From Phycisphaeraceae bacterium D3-23 (lineage in GTDB: Bacteria > Planctomycetota > Phycisphaerae > Phycisphaerales > Phycisphaeraceae): a stretch of 64,000 bases of DNA. Positions 37,538 to 44,487 of this stretch are shown one piece after another. The position numbers were made by a program, and so were the translations under genes. Where the stretch lies: contig CP114179.1 of NCBI GenBank assembly GCA_039555135.1, positions 1 to 64,000 of the forward strand, read 5' to 3'. The notes beneath the pieces are model-generated. The model made no database searches, was not told the origin of the DNA, and worked only from the letters and a program-made list of their open reading frames with translations. Each line of letters begins with the position of its first letter. The first letter of the stretch is position 1.

Positions 37538-38313
37538 ATGAGCCTCCTGAGAAAAGCCGCCGAACGCCTCAGCCGAGGCCGTACCTTTCGGCGCAAGATC
37601 GTGGTCAACGGCAAGGCCTACCCGATCGTCGTCTCGCCCGACTCGCAACTGAAGTACCTCAAGCCCGGGTCGGGCGTGTTCGACCAAGACCTCGTGCGGA
37701 TCGCCGAGCAGCAGCTCGCGGCCGACAGCGTCGTGTGGGACATCGGCGCGAACGTCGGCGTGTTTACCTTTGCCGCCGCATCGGTCGCGCGCACCGGCAC
37801 CGTCGTCTCGGTCGAGGCAGACATCTGGCTGGCGAGCATCCTGCGCCGGACTGCGCGATTCGGTGCGCACGACGGGGTCGATGTGCGGATTGTCCCCGTC
37901 GCGGTGGCGGGCGACAACGCGGTGGCGGTGTTCACGGTCGCCCTGCGCGGCCGAGCGAGCAACGCCCTCGAGTCCGCGGGCGGGCGATCCCAGATGGGCG
38001 GCGTCCGCGAGAAGCAGTACGTCCCGACGACGACGCTGGACACCTGCTCGCCTCGTTCCCCGCGCCCGACTTCGTCAAGATCGATATCGAAGGCGCCGAG
38101 GTCATGGCCATCCGGGGCGGCGAGCGCCTGCTGCGAGACATCCGCCCGGTGTTCTACATCGAGGTCGGCCAGCACGTCTCGGATGAAATGCTCTCGATCT
38201 TCCGCGAGGCCCGCTACGCCGCCTTCGACCCCAAAGGCAAACCACTCACCGACACCTGCGCGAGCAACACGTTCTTCGTGCCCGATGAGAGGGTTGCCGG
38301 GTGGCAGGTGTGA
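37538..38313 (+). CDS. FkbM-family methyltransferase, one frame break
   Basis: SAM-dependent methyltransferase of the FkbM type. The SAM-binding motif is VVWDIGANVGVFTFAAASVA, followed by VVSVEAD and the VREKQYVPTTTLD block. The frame breaks near 38043, where GACACCTGC probably lacks one C; after it the protein continues in the next frame as PDFVKIDIEGAEVMAIRGGE and ends at 38313. The FVKIDIEGAE motif is the family hallmark. Such enzymes O-methylate sugars or other surface compounds. With the base restored the protein is about 258 residues, a normal length. Confidence 0.88.
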
Positions 38314-38347: not shown

Positions 38348-38427
38348 GTTTAGCCGTCGCCCAACGGGCGGCGCGTTGAACACCCTGGCACAGGCACCAC
38401 GCGCCGCCCGCTGGGCGACGGCTAAAC
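38348..38427. repeat. family-1 palindromic repeat, copy D
   Basis: GTTTAGCCGTCGCCCAACGG arm and its partner CGCCCGCTGGGCGACGGCTA plus AAC; arms of 28 nt with one mismatch, 24-nt loop. The best-preserved copy. Confidence 0.9.
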
Positions 38428-38513: not shown

Positions 38514-39410
38514 TCAACGCCGACGCCGCAGCAGCGCCAACCCACCCAGCCCCAGCAGCGCCAGCGAGCCGGGCTCGGGGATCGTCGTGATCGTCACGGT
38601 CGCGATGCCGTTGGCGTAGAGGTCGGCGCGGTTGAAGTCGATCAGCGCCGCGTCGGGGTTGGTGTCCAGGTCGCTTGGCGAGTTGAGGAAGCCGGCGAAG
38701 GGGATGCCATCGACATTGGTGACGACGCCGTTCTCATCCGTGCCGATGTTGGGGCCGCCCTGCCCGGCTCCGAGGCCGAGCTGCGGGAACAGGCCGTTGG
38801 CGGCGGAGGTGGCGAAGTCGTTGACCTCGGTGCCCGCGTCGTTGACGCCCAGCCCGATGAAGAACGTGATGGAGGTGCCGACCGGCGCGCCGTCAAGCGC
38901 GGACAGGTCGTGCGCCAGCGGGTTGCCGTTGGCGATGAAGTAGTCGTTGCTGGGCAGCACCATCGACGCGTAAGAGAAAAACTGGTTGTCGCCCGCAAGG
39001 TCGACATTGAACGCCTGCGACACCGTCTCGCCCGGGGCGATCGGCGGCGGGCCCATCGGGCTGGCGATCGTGCCGTCGACCCGGCCGGCCGTCTGCGCGG
39101 TGGCGAAGACGCCGCTCACGCCGCCGTCGACGTACGTGTTGCCCGCCAGGAAGTCGTCGCTGATGAAGCTGGTCGTGCCGTCCTCGGCCAATCGTTCGAG
39201 GCCCTCCTGGGTACTCAGTCCGCCGCTGTAGCTGTCGAAACTGCCGTCGTGGAAGCCGACCCACAGCGGCGTGATGAACACACCGCCCGCCGGCCCGTTG
39301 TTGGTGACATCAACGCGCACGTCGGTCGCCTGCGCGGCGAAGCCAACGCCGCCGGCCAGCCCGGCGAGGGCGAGGGTCGTGAGGTTACGGGGGGAAAACA
39401 TGGAACGCAT
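38514..39410 (-). CDS. Spondin_N-domain PEP-CTERM protein
   Basis: 298 residues from ATG 39410 (CGGAG upstream; ATG 39401 also possible). Signal peptide (LTTLALAGLAGGVGFAAQA), then a spondin N-terminal-like domain (VRVDVTNNGPAGGVFITPLW, FHDGSFDSYSGG, GLERLAEDGTT) and the C-terminal sorting tail IPEPGSLALLGLGGLALLRR plus RR. It is probably exported and processed by an exosortase. A promoter-like pair of boxes (39501-39536), shared with the upstream ECF sigma gene, suggests that sigma factor controls it. Confidence 0.9.
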   Translation of the reverse strand: MRSMFSPRNLTTLALAGLAGGVGFAAQATDVRVDVTNNGPAGGVFITPLWVGFHDGSFDSYSGGLSTQEGLERLAEDGTTSFISDDFLAGNTYVDGGVSGVFATAQTAGRVDGTIASPMGPPPIAPGETVSQAFNVDLAGDNQFFSYASMVLPSNDYFIANGNPLAHDLSALDGAPVGTSITFFIGLGVNDAGTEVNDFATSAANGLFPQLGLGAGQGGPNIGTDENGVVTNVDGIPFAGFLNSPSDLDTNPDAALIDFNRADLYANGIATVTITTIPEPGSLALLGLGGLALLRRRR

Positions 39411-39500: not shown

Positions 39501-39536
39501 ACTGTGTCGCCCCGCCGTCGCATCCCTTACAACCCG
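39501..39536 (-). promoter_or_regulatory. ECF-type promoter of Spondin_N PEP-CTERM gene
   Basis: Reading left: CGGGTTGTAAGG (39536-39525), 15-nt spacer, CGACACAGT (39509-39501). Both boxes and the spacer length recur before the ECF sigma gene. The start codon at 39410 is about 90 nt downstream. Confidence 0.75.
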
Positions 39537-39548
39537 AACAGAAAATAT

Positions 39549-39830
39549 TTATGAAAGCCGTTCGATCATGCGTTCTTTCGCTTCGCGCGACAGGCGATGG
39601 CCCGGGCAGCAGGCCTCGCTTCGGCCGTGCTCGCGGAAGCGTTTGTTCGCGAGACGAACGGACGCGAGCTGCTTACGTACCCGCCGGCACCAGCGGCAGT
39701 TGACCAGGTGGACGCGCAGCGCCGCGCGCTGCGCCCAGGGCAACTCGCCCTCGTAGCTGTCCGACACGATGCGCGCGGACTCATCGCAGGTCAGCGTGAG
39801 GATCTTGATGAAGCGCTGAAGTCGAGACAT
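39549..39830 (-). CDS. zf-HC2-type putative anti-sigma factor
   Basis: 93-residue soluble protein with Cys15 and the HxxxCxxC motif His41-Cys45-Cys48 (HLVNCRWC), the zinc-binding anti-sigma signature. There is no membrane segment, so it would be a cytoplasmic anti-sigma factor, perhaps redox- or metal-sensing. It starts 18 nt after the stop of the ECF sigma gene, clearly in the same operon. Confidence 0.85.
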   Translation of the reverse strand: MSRLQRFIKILTLTCDESARIVSDSYEGELPWAQRAALRVHLVNCRWCRRVRKQLASVRLANKRFREHGRSEACCPGHRLSREAKERMIERLS

Positions 39831-39848
39831 GGCGAAGCTCCGTTGGCG

Positions 39849-40433
39849 CTACCGGCCGAACCAGTTGGATTCCAGGCATTCCCGCAGGAACAGACGTGCG
39901 CGGTGCAGCCGAACAGACAGGTTGGTCGCCGAGATGTCGAGGACCTTACAGATTTCTTGGGGCGCGAGGCCTTCGAGCTCGCGCAGGATGTACGCCTCGG
40001 CGTGGGTCGTGGGCAGGCGGTCGCGGCAGGCGTGATAGACCCGCCAAAACTCCTCGTTTTCGTAAAGCTCGGCCGGGTCGCCGCCCCAGTCGGCGGGCTT
40101 GGGCGACCACCGCCCACGCTTGGAGTACAGCCCCATCGTGCCGTGCGCATCGCCCACCTGCAGGTCCTGCGCCTCCCTGGTCCGGCGCGTTCGGCGGAAG
40201 TGGTCCAGCACCTTGTGCCGCAGGATCCCGACCAGCCAGGTCCGCTCGCTCGACCGCCCCTCAAACGTTTCGTGCGACTCCAGGGCCGCGACCAGCGCAT
40301 CCTGCACCAGGTCTTCCGCCACGTCCGGCCTGCGCACACGCGACAGCGCGTAGGCATACAAGGCGTCGCTGTGGTCATGAACCCACTGGGCCGGGTCCAT
40401 CAGCTTGAGGTCATACGTCGCCAACTCGCTCAC
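39849..40433 (-). CDS. ECF-type RNA polymerase sigma factor
   Basis: 194 residues from GTG 40433, which has GGAGGG well placed; an ATG at 40478 would add 15 residues. Region 2 (DALYAYALSRVRRPDVAEDL, QDALVAALE, RTWLVGILRHKVLDHFR) and region 4 (AEAYILRELEGLAPQEICKV, ISATNLSVRLHRARLFLREC) are both clear. A 45-residue insertion separates them. It forms an operon with the zf-HC2 anti-sigma gene, and its own upstream boxes match those of the Spondin_N gene, so autoregulation is likely. Confidence 0.93.
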   Translation of the reverse strand: MSELATYDLKLMDPAQWVHDHSDALYAYALSRVRRPDVAEDLVQDALVAALESHETFEGRSSERTWLVGILRHKVLDHFRRTRRTREAQDLQVGDAHGTMGLYSKRGRWSPKPADWGGDPAELYENEEFWRVYHACRDRLPTTHAEAYILRELEGLAPQEICKVLDISATNLSVRLHRARLFLRECLESNWFGR

Positions 40434-40488
40434 TTGCAGCCCTCCAGCACCCAAAGCGCCCGCTTTCACATATGACACGGGCGCTACG

Positions 40489-40524
40489 ACTGAGTCGCGG
40501 CAGATGCAGAGACCTTACAACCCG
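40489..40524 (-). promoter_or_regulatory. ECF-type autoregulatory promoter
   Basis: CGGGTTGTAAGG (40524-40513), 15-nt spacer, CGACTCAGT (40497-40489), about 55 nt before GTG 40433. Same boxes and spacing as 39501-39536; AT-rich sequence precedes both -35 boxes. Confidence 0.75.
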
Positions 40525-43715: not shown

Positions 43716-43764
43716 TAGGGACTACCCCAGCTTTCATCTGTACCCCATGCCCGAAGGACACTGT

Positions 43765-44487
43765 ATGTTGCATTCGAATCAAGCGCTGTTAGCCGTCGGC
43801 ACCCTCTCGCTCGCGGTCGGCGTTGCCGACAGCGCACTTGCCCACGGCGAAAACAGCGACCTCACCTACGAAACCGTCGGTAGCCAGATCCTCACGCATG
43901 ACACGACCACCTCACTGGTCCAGATCTTCGGCCCACACTTCGGCATCTCCCAGACCGGCGACGACCGCATGGTGGTCAACTCACCCTGGTTCGTGCCCGG
44001 CCCGACGGTCGATGACGGCGGCTCCTTCGCCGTCAACTTCGAGGCCCTGAGCGTCTGGAACGGCTCGGGCTTTGTCGACCCCGGCACCGAGTCCGTCAGC
44101 GTCACCCACGCCAACGGCGCACACGAGATCACCTCCACCGCCGGCGGCTCGTTCAACCTCGACCTGCTCGACCCCGAGCTCACCTGGCAGCTCAACGGCA
44201 ACAACGGCGGGGCCGACCCCGACCGCGGCGTCTACCTCGTGCAGTTCACCATCACCGACAACGACCCGCTGAGTAACTTCGACGACTCGCGCCCCGTGTT
44301 CTTCGCCTTCGACTTCGAGAGCGGCTACACCGCCGAGAACCCGAGCTACCTCAGCGACGACTACAACCACCACCACCACCACATGTCCCGCGGCTACATC
44401 GCCGACAACCTCATCAACGTCCCCGAGCCCGGCTCGCTTGCGCTGCTCGGCCTCGGCGGGCTGGCGCTGCTGCGCCGGCGTCGGTAA
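43765..44487 (+). CDS. PEP-CTERM secreted protein
   Basis: 240 residues. ATG 43765 is supported by AAGGA 6 nt upstream, better than ATG 43747. Signal peptide (LLAVGTLSLAVGVADSALAH), a beta-rich domain of no recognised family, a His run near the end (DDYNHHHHHMS), then VPEPGSLALLGLGGLALLRR plus RR. The gene has its own promoter (43688-43715) and terminator (44516-44550). The His cluster may bind metal. Confidence 0.9.
   Translation: MLHSNQALLAVGTLSLAVGVADSALAHGENSDLTYETVGSQILTHDTTTSLVQIFGPHFGISQTGDDRMVVNSPWFVPGPTVDDGGSFAVNFEALSVWNGSGFVDPGTESVSVTHANGAHEITSTAGGSFNLDLLDPELTWQLNGNNGGADPDRGVYLVQFTITDNDPLSNFDDSRPVFFAFDFESGYTAENPSYLSDDYNHHHHHMSRGYIADNLINVPEPGSLALLGLGGLALLRRRR

Follow-up and report, generated by a model that had tools for sequence, protein, structure and literature searches.

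A planctomycete ECF sigma factor locus with three copies of a putative own promoter, one of them apparently kept by codon choice within the sigma factor gene

Described systems of the same type

The closest described systems are those of sigma-E (NMB2144) and MseR in Neisseria and of RpoE2 and HrsE in Haemophilus influenzae. According to the available parts of three accounts (PMC2893595, PMC3240639, PMC7907618), each comprises, like the locus reported here, an ECF sigma factor of the TIGR02943 type, a ZAS anti-sigma factor encoded directly downstream and a small regulon, and the neisserial operon is autoregulated. The neisserial sigma-E consensus consists of a -35 box GTMAGBWTT and a -10 box CGTCTAAH with 12-13 nt between them (PMC2893595, in the part available), and the ZAS motif is given as C/H-X23-26-H-X3-C-X2-C (PMC7907618, likewise in part). 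In reporter assays, H. influenzae msrAB was strongly RpoE2-dependent; a 284-bp region upstream of rpoE2 gave no RpoE2 response, and 865 bp gave a slight one, from 11 to 95 Miller units (PMC7907618, same part). The targets named in the available text are msrA/msrB, the rpoE operon and a dmt transporter gene, and not a spondin PEP-CTERM gene as here. An intragenic promoter is not reported for either system in the accessible portions of the same three accounts, and that of the meningococcal RNA-seq account does not mention an intragenic start.

In Corynebacterium glutamicum, the promoter PrshA lies inside sigH and gives rise to a separate, SigH-dependent transcript of the anti-sigma gene rshA, the start of which was measured (PMC3489674, partial text). 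The SigH promoter type, GGAATA..YGTTGAA, is unlike the motif described below, and conservation of codon choice, which was seen in the present work, is no part of that account as far as the available text extends. The sigV promoter of Caulobacter is located within the upstream cabp gene, according to the part of the source at hand. EcfF/OsrA of Bradyrhizobium (ECF group 16) is also autoregulated, with the related motif GTAAC(g,a)-N14-15-(c,t)CG(t,a); its -35 box is GTAAC, whereas GTAAG was found here, and its anti-sigma factor OsrA requires cysteines 129 and 179, zinc being unmentioned in the main text, whereas the anti-sigma factor described here is of the zinc-type ZAS class (PMC3420878, seen in part).

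Genes and promoter-like sites of the locus

The window, i.e. the whole stretch of DNA that was analysed, comprised the first 64,000 nucleotides of contig CP114179.1 of Phycisphaeraceae bacterium D3-23. The ECF sigma factor gene (39849-40433, minus strand) encodes Sigma70_r2 and Sigma70_r4_2 domains and reached 167.8 bits with TIGR02943, above the curated cut-off of 162.2; the ECF relative from Haemophilus haemolyticus scored 211.6 with the same model. A GTG start at 40433, behind GGAGGG, was favoured by eye, GTG at 40478 also being possible. The anti-sigma gene (39549-39830, minus strand) codes for a zf-HC2 protein of 93 amino acids (26.9 bits, cut-off 22.2), in the translation of which the ZAS motif reads C15-X25-H41-X3-C45-X2-C48 and fits the published pattern; no hydrophobic membrane segment was recognised by eye. 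The spondin-domain PEP-CTERM gene (38514-39410, minus strand; start ATG 39410) gave 129.2 bits with NF038123 (cut-off 40) and 26.5 bits with PF07589 (cut-off 20.7, residues 276-298), and the N terminus of its product resembles a signal peptide by eye. The three genes had been named in this way in the original prediction. The ECF, zf-HC2 and PEP-CTERM calls hold above their cut-offs, and the name spondin is retained because of the NCBIfam match to NF038123, Pfam Spondin_N being absent at E<=0.1 in the Pfam search of the protein.

Three further features of the window were recorded. A second PEP-CTERM gene (43744-44484, plus strand; PF07589, 29.8 bits) is situated 4 kb away, with no two-box motif nearby. 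A 29-nt inverted repeat (38348-38427), the arms of which are 97% complementary and 22 nt apart, lies 3' of the spondin gene and is possibly a terminator or a dispersed repeat. On the plus strand, 37538-38313 gave a methyltransferase-like reading, presumably of the FkbM type, with an apparent frame switch at about 38000-38050, the N-terminal portion being in one frame and the DIEGAEVMAIRGGERLL part in another; either the gene is broken or the sequence contains an error.

Two two-box sites had been predicted on the minus strand, and both were recovered at exactly the predicted positions: at 40489-40524, 5' of the ECF gene (CGGGTTGTAAGG-N15-CGACTCAGT; -35 box TTGTAAGG, -10 box CGACTCA), and at 39501-39536, between the anti-sigma and spondin genes (CGGGTTGTAAGG-N15-CGACACAGT). 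The claim of an equal 15-nt spacing with unlike spacers was likewise borne out. The motif resembles the neisserial sigma-E promoter and has the same spacing: the -35 boxes agree with GTMAGBWTT at 8/9 positions (ECF site) and 7/9 positions (spondin site), with a spacing of 12, and the -10 boxes differ from CGTCTAA at two (CGACTCA) or three positions (CGACACA), opening with CGAC where the neisserial and Haemophilus systems have CGTC (PMC2893595, available part). A matrix was built from 21 intergenic sites, namely the two from the window and 19 others; the two window members scored 28.9 (upstream of the ECF gene) and 24.8 (before the spondin gene).

When CGGGTTGTAAGG-N15-CGACWCAGT was searched with up to three mismatches, two matches were obtained in the 64 kb window and none in 100 dinucleotide shuffles; across 4,619,879 bases the same two sites were the only matches, the backward control giving one. 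The core TTGTAAG-N16-CGACNMA matched the genome exactly at both intergenic sites and nowhere else (backward control 0). Four matches with one mismatch were found, one within the ECF gene (39922-39951, minus strand), two (47973 and 2028262) within long open frames of 762 and 383 codons, and the remaining one at 2930187. At up to two mismatches the count was at chance level (65 versus 58 in the backward control), which gives no indication of a larger regulon of comparable strength. The expectation that the query motif would uncover a whole regulon found no support in this genome, in which the whole-genome motif scan gave no further exact site and no strong site above chance beyond the locus. For the single MsrA gene (PF01625, 3092014-3092472), a scan of the 600 nt 5' of the GCFW motif gave no site (highest score -1.3, p 0.66), so that this target of the neisserial systems was not recovered here.

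The copy within the sigma factor gene

The third copy (39922-39951, minus strand), overlooked in the original prediction, reads CTGTAAGG-N15-CGACCAA and lies about 90 nt 5' of the anti-sigma start. Its codons specify E-I-C-K-V-L-D-I-S-A-T-N, which we take to be the first helix and the turn of the region 4.2 helix-turn-helix. As protein conservation alone could create such a match, synonymous choice was tested. The site of the window (score 25.3) ranks first among the 507 positions of its gene and has p 0.0125 on synonymous resampling. Codon usage was taken from each locus, with long open frames and not curated genes as the background.

Codon columns were compared in four sets of ECF genes; L198, L212, L215, L230, L233 and L236 were left out when the phylum and named-genome sets were compared. 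The class set (HMM E<=1e-53; 45 genes from 68 ORF hits; 174 codon columns) had its four most biased columns all within the site, with NCG in 38/45 genes (18.7 expected) and Cys encoded by TGT in 31/45 (14.0 expected); G as third base of Lys/Gln ranked sixth, and the column of rank 5 lies two codons past the site. The phylum set, from which class members were excluded (23 other genes; L280-L301 and L304), placed TGT first (18/23, 8.1 expected) and NCG second (15/23, 6.9 expected), and third-base G of Lys/Gln showed no outstanding bias among these 23 genes. Ranks 1-4 all fell in the site in the set from 35 named genomes, mostly of Pseudomonadota and Bacteroidota. A replication set, fetched once the hypothesis had been fixed, consisted of the best 30 matches from the order that includes Silvimonas, where 93 of 200 genomes matched, and gave TGT in 28/30 (9.8 expected), AAG/CAG in 30/30 (17.4) and NCG in 29/30 (11.7), at ranks 1, 3 and 2 of 169. 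Behind the inner -10 box, two columns of the class set, 12 and 14, showed further third-base biases (Leu with A in 12/42, 3.0 expected; Val/Thr with G in 32/43, 17.9 expected), which the motif as defined does not explain.

Resampling gave p<0.05 for 27/45 genes of the class, 8/23 of the phylum, 22/40 of the named and 25/30 of the replication set (82/138 in total), and the inner site was the best of its gene in 35/45, 15/23, 28/40 and 30/30, respectively (108/138). L212, a duplicate of L142 (G184:C3), is contained in the resampling, matrix-scan and control-cysteine counts. TGT was used at the site cysteine in 105/127 genes, versus 45/129 and 39/126 at two control cysteines (84/255 together). 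Changes between TGT and TGC on the protein tree numbered 17 at the site and 32 and 27 at the controls (127 genes for the second control), the lower number at the site being in part what the greater rarity of TGC there would lead one to expect. Fisher values across genes take no account of relatedness, and more reliance can be placed on the columns within each gene and on the control cysteines. Synonymous codons appear to keep the intragenic site in Planctomycetota, Pseudomonadota and Bacteroidota; Roseateles puraquae (L216) and Flavobacterium frigoris (L228) are among the relatives in which it is strong.

Among the class, phylum and named sets, an inner site scoring at least 10 was present in 69/99 ECFs with a downstream anti-sigma gene and in 0/9 without one, a group of just nine in which two rows have identical sites and L298, at 9.5, is close to the threshold. 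The anti-sigma gene was recognised by HMM in every case but one, which showed just an H-x3-C-x2-C frame. Inner sites below 10 were found in 30/99 anti-sigma-bearing ECFs, 25 of them listed below 5; these low-scoring ECFs include L063, L067 and L071 of genus g8, in which the ECF-anti-sigma-spondin layout is intact. An upstream site of at least 15 was detected in 4/138 ECFs (the window, L111, L198 and L222) when the 350 nt 5' of the aligned domain were scanned at a fixed 16-nt spacing, a procedure that misses other spacings, e.g. in L065. Upstream autoregulation was rejected as a family rule on this count; the intragenic copy is more conserved than the copy upstream of the ECF gene, and in the window the presence of the latter is unusual and that of the former typical. 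Autoregulation from the upstream promoter, as originally proposed, is plausible in the window and would be an exception in the family.

Two other explanations of the biased codons were weighed. It is unlikely, if conceivable, that they are conserved for translation pausing, for an mRNA element or for unproductive binding or pausing of sigma-RNAP: codon bias does not reveal the process that selects it, and intragenic sigma sites elsewhere are described as mostly transcriptionally inactive, or as pausing sites (PMC10771440, in the part available), but the biased bases fit the promoter matrix built on intergenic sites, at the equal 16-nt spacing, and the site score is low in the nine ECFs that have no adjacent anti-sigma gene. 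A little less credence is given to the model of the original prediction, under which only the two intergenic sites matter and the match within the gene arises incidentally from the conserved protein sequence C-K-x5-[AST]-T-N. The amino acids alone do score fairly, with a resampled mean of 14.5 for the window gene against the 25.3 observed; in four sets, nevertheless, synonymous choice favours the bases of the promoter, and the two control cysteines of the same genes are unbiased.

Sites in relatives and the proposed switch

The matrix was applied to 176 loci (1.35 Mb) and returned 116 sites of at least 18 bits, versus one in the reversed sequence; 69 were located in ECF coding sequences and 47 outside (27 new, 19 from the training set and one duplicate). 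The outside sites precede genes for spondin, VTT-domain, small CKG-rich secreted, DoxX, beta-propeller, MsrA or MsrAB proteins, as assigned from the longest downstream open frame, ten of the proteins being checked with Pfam. Among the new sites, one precedes MsrAB in H. haemolyticus (L227) and another precedes MsrA (L300); the former, taken together with the RpoE2-dependent msrAB of H. influenzae, serves as an outside check on the matrix. Class-wide, the exact core occurred 26 times in 22/198 genomes, versus 35 in the backward control, and 11 of the 26 sites were inside an ECF match or no more than 2 kb away from one; the signal, lacking any global excess, is thus one of location. In ten named genomes the corresponding counts were 23 and 20.

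At L286, L289, L072, L090 and L107, small secreted proteins with CKGxxxCKGKGGC-like repeats adjoin the ECF gene behind the same promoter motif. The best match of the two that were tested was to DUF7640, below its cut-off; such proteins may belong with the bufferin-like metal-binding peptides.

Matches to the ECF query were found in 60, and the spondin family in 25, of the 198 genomes of the class, and an ECF relative adjoins 14/31 spondin genes (the window counted). The motif TTGTAAGG-N15-CGACYMA is present upstream of many spondin-domain genes of the class. When the 500 nt 5' of the spondin domain were compared with 200 composition shuffles, a site at p<=0.02 was obtained for 20/31 genes, nine of these 20 belonging to the training set of the matrix; out of sample, the figure was 11/22. 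Five site-bearing spondin genes (L112, L113, L126, L128 and L132) and their ECF are on separate contigs, which argues that the site is more than a neighbourhood hitch-hiker; these are draft genomes, and L113 and its ECF are both close to contig ends. In the four class genomes that have a spondin gene and no ECF match (L095, L096, L097 and L141), the site reached p<=0.02 in one. Recent local duplication or chance is a most improbable origin of the two intergenic boxes of the window, for although they are near each other and just two in number, their spacers are unlike, the shuffled window gave no match, and the same motif was looked for and found before spondin genes in other families.

TTGTAAG as a feature of all ECF-spondin pairs was rejected, as the family f2 loci L063, L067, L071 and L124 carry GCAAGG-N15-CGAC[AC]CA 5' of the spondin gene, by eye directly after the anti-sigma stop. 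In the three from genus g8 (L063, L067 and L071), GCAAGG replaces TGTAAGG before the spondin gene, and the inner site and the C, K, T and N residues of region 4.2 are lost; L124 retains C, T and N, and L118, also of family f2, retains all four. Since L124 and L118 combine the GCAAGG form with most of the residues, the -35 change and the loss of residues are not strictly coupled. The g8 relatives offer a natural experiment on -35 recognition. Of the original proposal of an autoregulated ECF factor and its target, there stand a motif that acts like a promoter for ECF factors of this type and a spondin gene that is a conserved candidate target.

The reading preferred here, to which a probability of roughly three in four is assigned, is that of a zinc-anti-sigma ECF switch of the neisserial sigma-E/Haemophilus RpoE2 type whose own promoter is present three times within 1 kb, the inner copy providing feedback through the anti-sigma factor. 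Free sigma factor would read the copy upstream of its own gene, the copy within that gene, yielding a transcript that carries the anti-sigma gene, and the copy 5' of the spondin PEP-CTERM gene. If transcription starts six bases past the -10 box, as the rule is in Neisseria, the inner transcript would begin about 85 nt 5' of the anti-sigma ATG. Inactivation of the anti-sigma factor, which homology suggests to occur when the zinc site is oxidised, would let the sigma factor raise itself and the surface protein, and the intragenic promoter would then supply extra anti-sigma factor and shut the response down. The sequence basis of this proposal consists of the three sites, their match to the sites of candidate targets, the biased codons and the weak or absent inner site in the nine ECFs that have no anti-sigma gene; from it we infer transcription from each site, the sign of the feedback, the redox signal and any role of the spondin protein. 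The likeness to SigH/RshA lies in a sigma-type promoter within the sigma coding sequence before the anti-sigma gene, here at 39922-39951 with a start that is predicted only, and by this analogy the arrangement would be a known type of wiring, with PrshA as its experimental precedent (PMC3489674, available part).

The open-licence literature, in the partial coverage available, yielded no report joining an ECF sigma factor with spondin or a spondin domain with PEP-CTERM, no description of a spondin PEP-CTERM target of an ECF, and none of a codon-embedded promoter kept in an ECF helix-turn-helix over several phyla; for TIGR02943 it yielded a paper on phages.

It is likely, though put a shade less firmly than the switch itself, that this is an ancient multi-phylum ECF family in which the DNA of the helix-turn-helix is the factor's own promoter, kept by codon choice and driving the anti-sigma brake, and that Planctomycetota have rewired it to a spondin surface protein. 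If so, one stretch is read both as protein and as regulatory DNA, and the codons of a regulator's DNA-binding domain would be under a second, regulatory constraint that is visible from sequence across phyla. This would offer a testable reason why few ECFs of this family have an upstream autoregulatory promoter, feedback control still being possible. The motif would tie a planctomycete surface-protein gene to the oxidative-stress switches of Neisseria and Haemophilus, and may hint at how planctomycetes control a surface protein that is sorted by an exosortase.
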